Origin: a virus
IMG/VR virus record: IMGVR_UViG_3300028025_003610
Span: 1-50,676 of that record
Reading direction: 5' to 3' (one strand)
DNA: 50,676 bases
The position numbers and the translations under genes were made by a program. The number at the start of each line of letters is the position of its first letter. The first letter of the stretch is position 1. The notes below the pieces were generated by a model. It saw only the letters and a program-made list of their open reading frames with translations. It was not told the origin of the DNA and did not search any database. This document shows positions 22,385 through 31,313 of this stretch, one piece after another.

Positions 22385-22717
22385 ATGTCAAACACAAAAA
22401 ACAAGGTAAATGCTGTAGAAAGCAAAGCAGAGTATGGAATTTATGTATGGATTTTACCAAACGGTGAACCATTTATGGATGATCGTGGTAACACACTAAA
22501 TGTTCCTTCAAGAAAATATGATATTTCAAAAATGAAATCCCTAGCTGATGCAGCTAGTTATTGGGGTAAACCAGAAGGTGAAGCCAAGTTTATGCCTGGA
22601 GTTGGAAGAGTATCTGATGATGCTTCAAGAGAAGATCATGAAAGAATGGCTGAAGGCTTAACTCCTTATGGAGATACAGAAAACTGGAGAGAGGTGTTCC
22701 AAAGTGCAAGAGATTAA
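22385..22717 (+). CDS. Conserved hypothetical protein upstream of portal, 110 aa
   Basis: AEYGIYVWILPNGEPFMDDR (about 15-34) and YWGKPEGEAKFMPGVGRVSD (about 59-78) look like a conserved phage protein found next to portal genes; function is not established. It is charged, without Cys. The start is apparently leaderless. Its 3' end overlaps the portal gene by 14 bases, which links its translation to head assembly. Confidence 0.72.
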   Translation: MSNTKNKVNAVESKAEYGIYVWILPNGEPFMDDRGNTLNVPSRKYDISKMKSLADAASYWGKPEGEAKFMPGVGRVSDDASREDHERMAEGLTPYGDTENWREVFQSARD

Positions 22718-24266
22718 TGGTTCCGATGTTAGTATGCTTTCTGTAAAAAAAGCAGAGAATGATTTTACAACTTCCGCAGATGATTTTAATAAGTCTGCAG
22801 ATGAAGTAATGAAGCTCTCTGGTTTGAGCCATAATTTCAGAAGAGCAGCAAAAAGAAAAATTGAAAAGGCAGATAATAATAGCCTTACTGGAGATGGATC
22901 GTCCTCAAAGCAGATAGTTCCAGATAAGTATGGATACGGCATCTTTGATGTAGTTGAAGCACCATACAACATGAATTCTCTTTCTAGAATATATGAAGTT
23001 TCTGCAGCAAATTTTGCTGCAATTAATGCAAAAGTTTCAAACGTTGTTGGTCTTGGATATTCCCTAGACCCATCTCTTAGTGTTATGCAAGCACTTGAAG
23101 ATATTGAAGATCCAGATAGATTGAATCGTGCAAGAAAAAAGATTGACAGAGCAAGAGAGTCAACAATTGAGTGGCTAGAGTCAAGAAATGATGAAGATAC
23201 ATTTACTGCAACTCTAATGAAAGCCCTTATTGACAAAGAGTCAACTGGTAATGGGTATCTAGAAATTGGTAGAACTACAACTGGAGAAATTGGATATATT
23301 GGTCATATTCCAGCTTCTACCATTCGTGTACGCCGTCTTCGTGATGGATTCGTTCAGATCGTAAATGGAAAAGCAGTTTTCTTCAGAAACTTCCAAGATG
23401 TAAATCAAGCCAATCCAATTGGAGACGACCCTCGTCCAAATGAAATTATTCATCTTAAAACTTATACTCCAACAAATACATATTATGGCATTCCTGCAAT
23501 TGTTGCAGCAAAAAATGCCATGGCAGGTAATGAGTTTGCATCTAAATTTAACCTAGAATACTTTGAAAATAAGGCTGTTCCAAGATATGTATTCTGGATT
23601 AAGGGTGCAAAACTTTCAAGAGATGCAGAGCAGAAGCTGTTTGACTTTTTCTCTAATAACCTTCGTGGTCAAAACCATAGAACTGTTGTTGTTCCTCTTC
23701 CTGCAGATGATGGAAATGGCAATAAGGTAGAAGTTAAGATGGAGGCAATCGAAAATGGTATTCAAGATTCGTCCTTTAATAACTATAGAAAGTCAAATAT
23801 TCATGAGATTTTGATGGCTCATAGAGTTCCAATTTCAAAAATTGGAAGCATGGAAAATATTTCTCTTGCTAATGCTCGTGAGGCAGATAAGACATTCAAG
23901 GAACAAGTTTGTCGTCCAGAACAAGACGCTCTTGGTAAATCCATTAATAGACTTGTTGCAGAAAAGACAGATATGTTTAAACTAAAGTTTAATGAGCTTA
24001 CTCTTACAGATGAAGACACTCAGTCAAAGATTGATGAAAGATACCTTAGAATGCAGGTTATTATGCCTAATGAAGTTAGATCTAGGCTTGGTATGTCCCA
24101 ACTTCCTGATGGTGATACTCCAGTAATTCTTAAGCCACAACAAGCAGCAGAACAAAGAACACAGGCTTCTGGAAATAGATTGAGAGATCAACAAAGAACT
24201 GCAAACTCAGCTGATACTGGAACTGGATCAAGAGCTACTCAAGGTGACGGTAGACAACAGCAATAA
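22704..24266 (+). CDS. Portal protein (HK97 type), 520 aa
   Basis: The portal is the dodecameric ring at the head vertex through which DNA enters and leaves. Features: YGIFDVVEAPYNMNSLSRIY (about residues 68-87), ALIDKESTGNGYLEIGRTTT (about 175-194), EIIHLKTYTPTNTYYGIPAI (about 251-270), HRVPISKIG and a Gln-rich C-terminal tail, all usual for Phage_portal (PF04860) proteins. The start is GTG 22704-22706, with GGAGAGAGG 9 bases upstream; an in-frame ATG at 22668 would overlap the previous gene by 50 bases and is less likely. Confidence 0.92.
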   Translation: MQEINGSDVSMLSVKKAENDFTTSADDFNKSADEVMKLSGLSHNFRRAAKRKIEKADNNSLTGDGSSSKQIVPDKYGYGIFDVVEAPYNMNSLSRIYEVSAANFAAINAKVSNVVGLGYSLDPSLSVMQALEDIEDPDRLNRARKKIDRARESTIEWLESRNDEDTFTATLMKALIDKESTGNGYLEIGRTTTGEIGYIGHIPASTIRVRRLRDGFVQIVNGKAVFFRNFQDVNQANPIGDDPRPNEIIHLKTYTPTNTYYGIPAIVAAKNAMAGNEFASKFNLEYFENKAVPRYVFWIKGAKLSRDAEQKLFDFFSNNLRGQNHRTVVVPLPADDGNGNKVEVKMEAIENGIQDSSFNNYRKSNIHEILMAHRVPISKIGSMENISLANAREADKTFKEQVCRPEQDALGKSINRLVAEKTDMFKLKFNELTLTDEDTQSKIDERYLRMQVIMPNEVRSRLGMSQLPDGDTPVILKPQQAAEQRTQASGNRLRDQQRTANSADTGTGSRATQGDGRQQQ

Positions 24267-24307
24267 ATAACACTATAATAAGAAAAGTGTTATATAATTG
24301 AAATGCT

Positions 24308-26125
24308 ATGGTAGATTTACAAAAAGCTTCTCTTACTACCAATGGTCAACAAATTACATTGACCATGCCTATCTCAAAGGTAGACGTAGAAAAGAGAATA
24401 GTATCTGGGTTTGCAACACTTGACAATGTTGATCGTCAAGGAGACAGGATTACATCCGAAGCATCCCGTAAAGCATTTGAAAGCTTTAGAGGTAATGTGC
24501 GATTAATGCACCAACCAATTCCAGCAGGAAAAGTTGTAAACTTTAGAACAGAAACTTTCTTTGACATGGAAACAAACAAGCAGTATAGTGGCGTGTATGT
24601 TGATGCCTATATTTCAAAAGGTGCAGATAACATTTGGGAAATGGTTCTAGATGGTACACTTACTGGTTTTTCAGTTGGCGGAAACGTAAAAGATTCAGAA
24701 CCAGTACTTGATGCGGAATCACAGAAAACAGTTAGAATAATTAAAGACTATGATCTAGTAGAACTATCACTAGTTGATTCCCCAGCAAATCAATTAGCAA
24801 ATATTTTTTCTATTCAAAAGACAGATCATGGCAACGTTGCTGATGGAATTTTTAATAAATCAAATATCCAGAATGTATTTTGGTGTGAGGCAGATAATCT
24901 AGCCTATACTGGATCAGAAGAAACTCATAAGTGTGCAAATTGCAATTGCGAATTAAATACCATTGGTTGGGTTGATGAAATAGATGAGACTTCAACAGCT
25001 AAAGCTGTTTTTGCAATGGTAAAAGCAGAAAATGTTGTAACAAACGAAGAAACTCCAAATAAATATTCAGATCAGAATATGCCAGATCATTCACTAGATG
25101 AGTGCAAGGATCCAGAAAATTGCCCAGATCATATGGGTAAAAAGAAGGATGAGAACGAGCGTAAAGACAAAAAGAAAAATGAAATGCAAAAGAGAGCATT
25201 TAATGTTGGAGATTTTGTACAATGGAACTCATCTGGAGGAACAGCTCGTGGTAAAATTACAAGAATAGTAACTAATGGTAAAGTTGTTGTGCCTAATTCA
25301 AGCGTAACAATTACGGCTACTCCTGAAAACCCTGCTGTAGCAATTACAGTTTATCAGGAGTCAAACGGTTCTTGGAAACCAACAGATATTAGAGTGGGAC
25401 ATAAAATGAATACCTTGAGAGCATGGAGCACAAAGGTGAAGAAAGTTTTCGGTATTCCAACAAAAGTTTTACTATCCGATGAGGTAGTAAATAAGGCAAT
25501 TGAGACTGATACTCAGTCAGTTGCCAACCAAAACAACGAAGGAGGTGTTGAAGTGGCTGAAAACATTGAAACTACTACAGATGTAGTAGAAGAAGTAGTT
25601 GTTGACGAAGTTATTGAAGAAGTTGAAGCAGTTGAAACAGAAGAGTCTGTAGAAACAGTTGAAAAGTCGGATGTAGCAGAAGAAGCAACTGAAGAAGAAG
25701 CTATCGAAACAGTCGAAGAAGTTGCATCAGAAGATGCAGCAGAGGCAGACGCTTCCACCGAAAATGGTGAGGCATCTGACTTGGAGAAAGCCCTTAACGA
25801 AGTTAAGACTTTTGTAGAGGAAATCGTTGCAAAGAGCACAGTAACAAATGTTGAGTCTGTAACAGCAGTAGCTGGAACAGTAGCAGAAGTAACAAAGGCT
25901 CTTGGCGACAAGATTGCAGAAGTTGAAAGCGGATACGCAGAGGTTAACAAAGCTCTTGCAGGAATCTCAGAAGTACTCTCAACTCTCTCAGGAAGAGTAG
26001 AGTCTGTAGAGGCAGATACTGCAGTAAAGAAGTCTGGTGAACTTGGTGAATCATCAGATAAGACAATCACTAAAACCCAATCAACTTGGGGCGGACGCTT
26101 CCTCGGCACCGCAGAATTAATTTAA
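24308..26125 (+). CDS. Prohead protease fused to zinc, Tudor-like and scaffold regions, 605 aa
   Basis: Residues about 15-171 are a XkdF/HK97-type prohead protease, with His68 (in RLMHQPI) and Ser154 (in VELSLVDSPA) as likely catalytic residues. Residues 193-214 hold a four-Cys cluster (C-E-A-D ... C-A-N-C-N-C) that may bind zinc. About 260-292 are charged with DECKDPENCPDH. Residues about 297-370 (FNVGDFVQWNSSGGTARGKI, ITATPENPAVAITVYQ, RVGHKMNTL) resemble the DUF2945 Tudor-like domain. From about 416 to the end the chain is Glu/Val-rich and predicted coiled coil, as in scaffolds. A separate scaffold gene is absent between it and the capsid gene. The predicted -10 TATAAT (24293-24298) is 9 bases before ATG. 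Confidence 0.82.
   Translation: MVDLQKASLTTNGQQITLTMPISKVDVEKRIVSGFATLDNVDRQGDRITSEASRKAFESFRGNVRLMHQPIPAGKVVNFRTETFFDMETNKQYSGVYVDAYISKGADNIWEMVLDGTLTGFSVGGNVKDSEPVLDAESQKTVRIIKDYDLVELSLVDSPANQLANIFSIQKTDHGNVADGIFNKSNIQNVFWCEADNLAYTGSEETHKCANCNCELNTIGWVDEIDETSTAKAVFAMVKAENVVTNEETPNKYSDQNMPDHSLDECKDPENCPDHMGKKKDENERKDKKKNEMQKRAFNVGDFVQWNSSGGTARGKITRIVTNGKVVVPNSSVTITATPENPAVAITVYQESNGSWKPTDIRVGHKMNTLRAWSTKVKKVFGIPTKVLLSDEVVNKAIETDTQSVANQNNEGGVEVAENIETTTDVVEEVVVDEVIEEVEAVETEESVETVEKSDVAEEATEEEAIETVEEVASEDAAEADASTENGEASDLEKALNEVKTFVEEIVAKSTVTNVESVTAVAGTVAEVTKALGDKIAEVESGYAEVNKALAGISEVLSTLSGRVESVEADTAVKKSGELGESSDKTITKTQSTWGGRFLGTAELI
25539..25555 (+). promoter_or_regulatory. Internal Shine-Dalgarno and GTG start in the protease fusion
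   Basis: AAGGAGG (25539-25545) is followed after 7 bases by GTG (25553-25555), in frame at codon 416. This is the best binding site in the gene and lies exactly at the border between the Tudor-like region and the acidic coiled coil. Confidence 0.6.
25553..26125 (+). CDS. Probable separately translated scaffold protein, 190 aa
   Basis: From the internal GTG (codon 416 of the protease gene) a protein starting MAENIETTTDVVEEVVVDEV would be made in the same frame. It is very acidic (Glu-rich to about residue 70) and then helical with heptad-like Val/Ala spacing (LGDKIAEVESGYAEVNKALA), as expected for a capsid scaffold. Lambda C/Nu3 and similar phage pairs are known to make a scaffold by internal start inside the protease gene. 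The C-terminal TQSTWGGRFLGTAELI could contact the capsid protein. This is inferred from the strong internal site and composition; no direct proof. Confidence 0.55.
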   Translation: MAENIETTTDVVEEVVVDEVIEEVEAVETEESVETVEKSDVAEEATEEEAIETVEEVASEDAAEADASTENGEASDLEKALNEVKTFVEEIVAKSTVTNVESVTAVAGTVAEVTKALGDKIAEVESGYAEVNKALAGISEVLSTLSGRVESVEADTAVKKSGELGESSDKTITKTQSTWGGRFLGTAELI

Positions 26126-26150: not shown

Positions 26151-27203
26151 ATGAGCGACAATATTTTAGAAAAGGCTGCAGCTAGCGGTACAGTTCTATC
26201 TCCATTGACATCCCCAGGCGACATGACTGCCGAAGGTAACTCAAATGACGCTGGTGGTGTTCTAAATCCAGAACAATCACGCCAGTTTATCGACTATATT
26301 TTTGACGAGATGGTTCTCGCCAATGATGGACGTAGAGTAGTTATGAGAGCTAACACAATGGAAGTAGACAAGGTTCGTGTAGGTTCACGTTTGGTTGCTA
26401 AGGCAACTCAGGCTGAAGATACAGGCTCCAACTCAGCTCCAGCATTTACAAAGATCGAACTTACAACAACTAAGTTCCGTCTAGATTACGAACTTTCGAC
26501 AGAATCCCTTGAGGACAACATCGAAGGTCAGCAACTTGAAGACCACATTGTAAGATTGATGGCAACTCAGTTCGGTAACGATCTTGAGGACATTGCTATC
26601 AATGGTCGTCCAGCATCGTCAGGCAATGGTACATACAATAACACATTGAATGGTTTCATTCGTCAGACACTTGACACATCTTACACAGGTGCTCACGAAG
26701 CTGCAGCAGCTGCTGCAACAATGACAAGCATCTGGGAGGCAACTCCAGATTCAGGTGATGGATCTGTTGCAACTCTGTCTCTTGAAGCTATCGAAGCAGT
26801 GTACAATGCACTACCTCGTAAGTTCAAGGCTCGCCGTCAGGACCTAAAGTTCTACATGAACAGCAAGCATCTTCAGGAACTAATCTCAGCACTTCGTGCT
26901 GTTGGTTCAGTACCTGAGCAGGTTGCAACCCGTGTAATTGATGGCGTTCTTCCACAGATCGGTGGTCCAGCAGGAGCACAGTACATGATCTTTGGATTGC
27001 CAGTACTTGAAGTACCTTTGTACCCAGATAACTACGTTGACTTGACATTGCCAAGCAACCGTATTTGGGGCTTCCAGCGTGATGTCACGGTTCACCGTGA
27101 GTTCAAGCCGAAGAAGGATACCGTAGAGTACACAGTATACGTCCGTATGGGTGTAGCTCTAGAAGAGAAGTCCGCTATTGCTTACGCACAGCGAACTGCT
27201 TAA
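26151..27203 (+). CDS. Major capsid protein (HK97 fold), 350 aa
   Basis: The position after protease/scaffold and the sequence fit an HK97-fold capsid: an acidic N-terminal arm, RQFIDYIFDEMVLANDGRRV (about 43-62), an E-loop region with VGSRLVAKATQAEDTGSNSA, TKFRLDYELSTESLEDNIEG (about 107-126), a central domain with PRKFKARRQDLKFYMNSKHL, and C-terminal GFQRDVTVHREFKPKKDTVE with VRMGVALEEKSAIAY. Its length is usual. Alanine-rich AAAAAAT near residue 190 is an unusual loop. ATG with GGGTG about 10 bases upstream. An efficient terminator follows. Confidence 0.92.
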   Translation: MSDNILEKAAASGTVLSPLTSPGDMTAEGNSNDAGGVLNPEQSRQFIDYIFDEMVLANDGRRVVMRANTMEVDKVRVGSRLVAKATQAEDTGSNSAPAFTKIELTTTKFRLDYELSTESLEDNIEGQQLEDHIVRLMATQFGNDLEDIAINGRPASSGNGTYNNTLNGFIRQTLDTSYTGAHEAAAAAATMTSIWEATPDSGDGSVATLSLEAIEAVYNALPRKFKARRQDLKFYMNSKHLQELISALRAVGSVPEQVATRVIDGVLPQIGGPAGAQYMIFGLPVLEVPLYPDNYVDLTLPSNRIWGFQRDVTVHREFKPKKDTVEYTVYVRMGVALEEKSAIAYAQRTA

Positions 27204-30614: not shown

Positions 30615-31313
30615 ATGGCACTAGGAAACGCTAAAAATATTGTTGTAGGTGCAGGTGCATTATACATCGGACATACAACAGACACAGAACTTACAGAGAA
30701 CGACCTACCAAAGGTAGCATCAACACTTGCAGCATGTACTGTATCCCTTCAGGATCCAGACAATGTTGACATTTGGAATGGTACATCAGGTGCATGGGAT
30801 TCCGTAGGTTACACATCAGAAGGTGCAGAACTATCGTTCGAACCAGATTATGGTGAAGTACAGGTAGATCAGCTACTTGACGTTGCAAAGATCTTCAAGC
30901 AGGGTCAGCGAGTAATGCTAAACACAACACTTGCAGAAGCTACACTTGAAAACTTCTTGGTAGCAATTGGTGGAAAGTCTACAGACCTTGTAGGTACTAT
31001 GTCTTCCCCAGTTCAGTCCGTATCACTTAACGGTGGTGCTCTAGGATACTCACCAGTTGAGCGTTCTATCGCAATCGTTGGTCCAGGACCAGACCAGAAG
31101 AAGACAGCAGCAAATAAGAACTTTGTAGAAAGAGTTTATGTTGGATACAGAGCCCTTTCAATGGAAACTGTAACTGTAGGCATTAGAAGAAACGAAGCTA
31201 CTGTATTCCCAGTAACTCTACGTCTTCTAGCTTCATCTGCAGAAGCAGGAGAAGCTCCAGACGGAAATGCTTCTTACGGTAAGATCATTGACAGAGCTTA
31301 CAACGTAGCTTAA
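30615..31313 (+). CDS. Major tail tube protein, 232 aa
   Basis: Its position between terminator and chaperone genes, strong binding site, own promoter and own terminator point to the tail tube subunit. The chain is beta-rich: NIVVGAGALYIGHTTDTELT (about 8-27), SEGAELSFEPDYGEVQVDQL (about 69-88), RVMLNTTLAEATLENFLVAI (about 97-116), RVYVGYRALSMETVTVGIRR. Tube proteins of siphoviruses have such a beta-barrel and are hexameric rings stacked along the tail. Confidence 0.85.
   Translation: MALGNAKNIVVGAGALYIGHTTDTELTENDLPKVASTLAACTVSLQDPDNVDIWNGTSGAWDSVGYTSEGAELSFEPDYGEVQVDQLLDVAKIFKQGQRVMLNTTLAEATLENFLVAIGGKSTDLVGTMSSPVQSVSLNGGALGYSPVERSIAIVGPGPDQKKTAANKNFVERVYVGYRALSMETVTVGIRRNEATVFPVTLRLLASSAEAGEAPDGNASYGKIIDRAYNVA

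Follow-up and report, generated by a model that had tools for sequence, protein, structure and literature searches.

The window analysed here is the whole of a 50,676-nt stretch of viral DNA (IMG/VR record IMGVR_UViG_3300028025_003610), and the genes of the locus are on its plus strand. An ORF encoding 605 aa (24308-26125, with a TAA stop at 26123-26125) lies between the upstream gene for the portal protein (22668-24266; Phage_portal, 1.2e-32) and the gene for the 350-aa major capsid protein (26151-27203). We call it the protease-scaffold ORF. The same order is found in annotated relatives; Streptomyces phages of the Stanwilliamsviridae, with 46-47% identity over the matched parts, also have portal, protease, and capsid genes in succession. 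The capsid gene starts 21 to 67 nt past the stop of the protease-scaffold ORF in the relatives, and 2 nt past it in the distant L068 (Alicyclobacillus phage MMB025). The Phage_capsid match begins at residue 35 of the capsid protein which, together with the close upstream stop, leaves no room for a scaffold domain of the HK97 type, of about 100 residues. Hence, the N-terminal scaffold (delta) domain is absent from this capsid protein. The records of the relatives give a single "capsid maturation protease" here and list no scaffold among the neighboring head genes.

Protease part and inserted domains

The N-terminal part of the ORF is a protease domain of the S78 family (about residues 1-159, 24308-24784), with a Pfam match to Peptidase_S78 over residues 32-168 (2.3e-6; 28.3 bits, above the curated cut-off of 21) and a structural model that is folded up to about residue 158. 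The ORF also matches the head maturation proteases of PHROG 9427 (2e-115). The putative catalytic residues, H68 and S122, are invariant in an alignment of 36 sequences. The Pfam search of the window ORF gave no match to S49, and the protein was not placed in the S49/ClpP group. The protease domain is followed by a small Cys domain (about residues 186-240, 24863-25027), delimited from the alignment and the model, with conserved C193, C209, and C212. A nearly invariant D196 lies near these cysteines (24884-24943) in the first alignment, and the resulting CxxD...CxxC pattern suggests a possible metal site.

Further downstream we found an Hva1_TUDOR domain (residues 301-347, 25208-25348; E value of 1e-7), which the alignment shows in freshwater relatives and lacks in the Streptomyces and Rhodococcus phages. 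Three lineages (L091, L098, and L102) have a DUF5824 domain inserted between the protease and the nested scaffold described below. Such inserts occur in some lineages only and always upstream of the internal start. Across lineages, the length before this start ranges from 244 to 650 aa and that of the nested part from 145 to 228 aa; the N-terminal length varies while the nested length holds, which is consistent with the nested part being a separate unit. At four further loci (L038, L049, L051, and L053) one ORF of about 850 to 1000 codons contains Tudor, S78-like protease, and apparent capsid-protein sequences, and some of these copies run off the contig.

A strong internal start signal within the window

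The original prediction was that a Shine-Dalgarno (SD) sequence 7 bases ahead of an in-frame GTG at codon 416 releases a separate scaffold of 190 aa. The letters bear this out exactly. The sequence around the site reads ...AACAACGAAGGAGGTGTTGAA followed by GTG GCT GAA, and the site itself (AAGGAGG TGTTGAA GTG, 25539-25555) consists of the SD motif at 25539-25545, a 7-nt spacer, and the GTG at 25553-25555. The GTG is in frame with the ATG at 24308, since (25553-24308)/3 + 1 = 416, and 190 codons remain before the TAA. The predicted nested scaffold gene (25553-26125) would thus encode a protein of 190 aa, about 19.9 kDa, and pI 4.05.

We calculated SD strength as the duplex energy to an assumed canonical anti-SD. 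On this scale the internal GTG reaches -16.3, the second-best internal in-frame start -7.7, and the ATG of the ORF only -0.9. The AAGGAGG motif occurs once on each strand of the 50.7-kb window. On both strands together, just two ATG or GTG codons have an SD of -14 or below, namely GTG 25553 and the ATG that begins the gene at 30615. The latter start (-15.1) is the sole other comparably strong one in the window; its gene has capsid-like codon usage and is probably the major tail protein gene. An equally strong internal start arose in 21 of 1000 synonymous shuffles of the protease-scaffold gene and in 6 of 1000 shuffles of its codon order. With a probability of 0.6 to 2.1% by chance, a single gene is only suggestive, and conservation must decide.

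Anatomy of the predicted nested product

The first 71 residues of the nested product form an acidic arm (25553-25765) that is predicted to be disordered (pLDDT < 50); D and E make up 40% of the first 75 residues. A single long helix of 85 residues follows (nested residues 72-156, 25766-26020; pLDDT mostly > 90), starting at about residue 487 of the ORF in the model of the nested protein alone and at about 490 in the full-length model. The C-terminal tail runs from TAVKKSG to WGGRFL (26021-26122). Seven residues are invariant in 33 sequences, T156, A157, K160, S161, W179, G181, and F183 (TAxxKS and WxGxF), of which T156 is the final residue of the predicted helix. The W-x-G-x-F-L end is the probable coat-binding end, and the tail is flexible in the model of the nested protein alone. 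In the full-length model, a disordered linker (residues 375-489) holds the internal start and is followed by the long helix and the conserved tail. GTG 416 had been placed exactly at the start of an acidic coiled coil. The acidic character of the region holds, but the helix does not begin there, as about 70 disordered residues come first.

All lineages encode acidic nested products (pI 4.05-4.80). A Foldseek search returned no significant match in the PDB, with a full-length model whose confidence is moderate to low, and a profile search against solved structures returned generic coiled coils only (spike HR1 and myosin) and no solved homologue. The known scaffold family PHROG 73 was matched weakly, by one relative only (4.7e-4). 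Lys-Ser pairs are enriched 3.4-fold in the nested part (25553-26122) of 39 lineages, with 156 found and 46 expected. Most relatives also have an (L/I)(E/Q)K-[A/V/S] motif at about residues 5 to 8 of both the capsid protein (26151-26180 in the window) and the protease (24308-24330). The pairs and the motif are candidate cleavage sites.

Conservation of the internal start among relatives

Relatives were collected from IMG/VR, where two successive scans gave 56 and 80 loci, and, for the Streptomyces and Rhodococcus phages, from a phage collection. The 105 complete ORFs fell into 39 lineages with less than 85% identity over the N-terminal 240 residues. All 105 have an internal in-frame start with an SD of -10 or below where the acidic C-terminal part begins, so that the prediction withstands the test by which it could have failed, namely relatives lacking the site. 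The runner-up internal site is never better than -9.6 in any of these ORFs, and only 1 of the 544 other internal in-frame starts of the same genes reaches -10. An internal start at -12 or below is present in 36 of the 39 protease lineages but, among the remaining ORFs of 200 aa or more at the same loci, in only 2 of 148. Genome contigs provided two further close relatives (L149 and L150), both with the site.

As a guard against circularity, we located the strongest anti-SD match of each ORF while ignoring start codons. An in-frame start codon follows this match at 4 to 14 nt in 39/39 lineages (10.7% expected; binomial figures are nominal because the lineages share ancestry). In the same search, the five codons on either side of the internal start hold no other start-like codon. 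We rejected the idea that the site is general to S78 proteases: a consistent internal site was not found in the distant S78 genes L151-L162, and the feature therefore belongs to this clade. The head protease gene of the distant L068 has AAGGAGG and a GTG 11 nt apart at codon 296, ahead of an acidic C-terminal part, and may have come to this arrangement independently.

Nucleotides are kept where residues are not

The purine run reads GAA-GGA-GGT or AAA-GGA-GGT (E/K-G-G) in most lineages. In a clade of 12 lineages (support 100/99) it is shifted by one base, to AAG-GAG followed by GTA, GGG, or GAG (K-E-V/G/E). The tree has one such frame switch within the family, and possibly a second in L068, whose placement is unsure. 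The same run is thus kept in two frames, showing that nucleotides, and not residues, are conserved; the peptide over the internal site is not. The start codon itself varies among GTG, ATG, and TTG. Where this position encodes Val, the codon is GTG in 20/20 cases, though GTG makes up 5.6% of Val codons. Among 522 codon windows of the freshwater relatives, the strongest synonymous constraint falls on codons 412-416. These codons are also among the high-ranking ones of the combined set, surpassed there only by the extreme C terminus, where the synonymous conservation of the last codons of the ORF (about 26080-26115) exceeds that of the internal start.

Expression hints

The SD of the full-length start has a median of -2.1 over the 39 lineages, and the internal SD is the stronger one in 38 of them. 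With the capsid gene as reference and permutation within amino acids, the nested part of the window ORF is more capsid-like in codon usage than the protease part (p = 0.0002), and the change in usage is best placed at codon 389. Of 22 relatives, 21 shift in the same direction, 8 of them significantly (p < 0.05), mostly freshwater ones; in the Streptomyces phages tested, the shift did not reach significance. Such a shift is compatible with additional translation of the C-terminal part. Together, the SD strengths of the two starts and the capsid-like codon usage of the C-terminal part indirectly support many copies of the scaffold and few of the fusion. A mini-ORF, ATG CTA TGG TAG (24303-24314), overlaps the ATG at 24308 in another frame and could dampen use of the full-length start.

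Discussion

The best explanation of these observations is a nested protease/scaffold gene, in which two in-frame proteins have a common C terminus and an internal start makes the scaffold. We give this reading a probability of about 0.9. That the nested product is a scaffold is supported by the position of the gene between those of the portal and the capsid, by the acidic arm, long helix, and C-terminal motif, and by the absence of a scaffold domain from the capsid protein. We infer initiation at the internal start, the ratio of the two proteins, the scaffold function, capsid binding, and proteolysis, according to the following scheme. Ribosomes starting at ATG 24308, with almost no SD, would make the 605-aa protease-scaffold fusion in low amount. 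Those recruited by AAGGAGG at 25539 to GTG 25553 would make the 190-aa acidic scaffold as an abundant separate protein. The scaffold would co-assemble with the 350-aa capsid protein, probably via its W-x-G-x-F-L end, and the few copies of the fusion would be taken into the procapsid by way of this shared C-terminal region, bringing the protease inside. By analogy with lambda and the herpesviruses, the protease would later degrade the scaffold within the procapsid.

Could the fusion be the only product of translation? The protease itself would then release the scaffold, and the SD-like run would be incidental or would pause ribosomes between domains. Slowing of ribosomes by SD-like sequences within genes has been proposed, and the Lys-Ser pairs enriched in the scaffold part are like cleavage sites. 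However, a start codon would be superfluous for a pause, and one follows in frame in 39/39 lineages, with 10.7% expected; Val at its position is always GTG. Furthermore, translation of the fusion only would yield protease and scaffold in equal amounts, from a sole start with almost no SD. We consider this scenario very improbable. We give equally little credence to the production of the nested protein from its own shorter mRNA, as for UL26.5 of herpesviruses; the promoter would then lie within the protease part, and the SD would serve this transcript. There is one promoter-like match inside the gene (TTGACA-17-TATAGT, 24561-24589), but it lies about 960 bases upstream of the internal start, and such matches are at chance level in the region (16 found vs 16.3 expected). 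Such a promoter would change only the origin of the mRNA, the protein product being the same.

It is also unlikely that the nested product is made but serves as something other than an assembly scaffold, e.g., a capsid-binding regulator or a chaperone. The lack of a solved homologue and the weak similarity to a known scaffold family leave room for such roles, the scaffold function being only predicted. Against them stand the position just before the capsid gene and the combination of an acidic disordered arm, a long helix, and a conserved C-terminal end. A scaffold domain is missing from the capsid protein, and none of the other head genes examined is a scaffold candidate.

This arrangement has parallels in known systems. 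The lambda C protease belongs to the S49/ClpP group, and the Nu3 scaffold is the C-terminal part of gene C, made from an internal in-frame start and adjoining the portal and capsid genes. Interactions between C and Nu3, between Nu3 and E, and with the portal have been described (PMC3224144). The gene of the window resembles C/Nu3 in that its predicted scaffold forms the C-terminal end of a protease ORF flanked by the portal and capsid genes, behind an internal in-frame start. It differs in that its protease is of the S78 type and is followed by the Cys domain and, in this subgroup, the Tudor domain before the scaffold. The scaffold had been proposed to be made in the way of lambda-like phages. 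The analogy in mechanism stands and common descent does not, since an S78 protease is outside the family of lambda C, yet the gene would work like C/Nu3. The Mu I protease, too, is of a family other than S78. In the Pseudomonas Mu-like phage PaMx73, gene 27, of the Mu I/Z type, has a predicted in-frame scaffold start inside the protease gene, with an SD 8 to 9 nt upstream of a Val codon, argued from the sequence and one comparison (PMC4378225). These phages are unrelated to the one in the window, where the site rests on 39 lineages. HK97 and T5, too, encode an S78-type protease between portal and capsid; for HK97, this gene order and a scaffold domain about 100 residues long are described in PMC12749128. 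Both phages carry their scaffold at the N terminus of the capsid protein (PMC10275583). In contrast, the capsid protein of the window lacks this domain and the predicted scaffold is on the protease instead. Protease-internal in-frame scaffold starts are already known from lambda and Mu; for this group of phages with S78 proteases, we found no record of the internal site in annotations and openly licensed papers.

The herpesvirus proteins UL26 and UL26.5 have a common C terminus, one of them carries the protease, and they are made from separate nested mRNAs. Herpes assemblin and the S78 proteases belong to one clan, MEROPS SH. The window gene would have the same two-protein logic, with a predicted internal ribosome binding site instead of a second mRNA. 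We give even odds to a broader proposal: that this S78 phage clade, comprising the Stanwilliamsviridae, Trinavirus, Weaselvirus, and many freshwater phages, sets its ratio of scaffold to protease by an internal ribosome binding site, and that, if S78 proteases and herpes assemblin share ancestry, this is the phage counterpart of UL26/UL26.5. If true, the same protease clan would have the same nested scaffold logic, achieved via translation and not by a second mRNA. The comparison of SD, start codon, and reading frame could serve to find nested genes that annotation pipelines have merged into one. The Tudor and DUF5824 inserts between protease and scaffold may provide a handle on how the protease gets carried into the procapsid. 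For a large group of actinobacterial phages, the missing scaffold gene would be identified, with its start codon given precisely.
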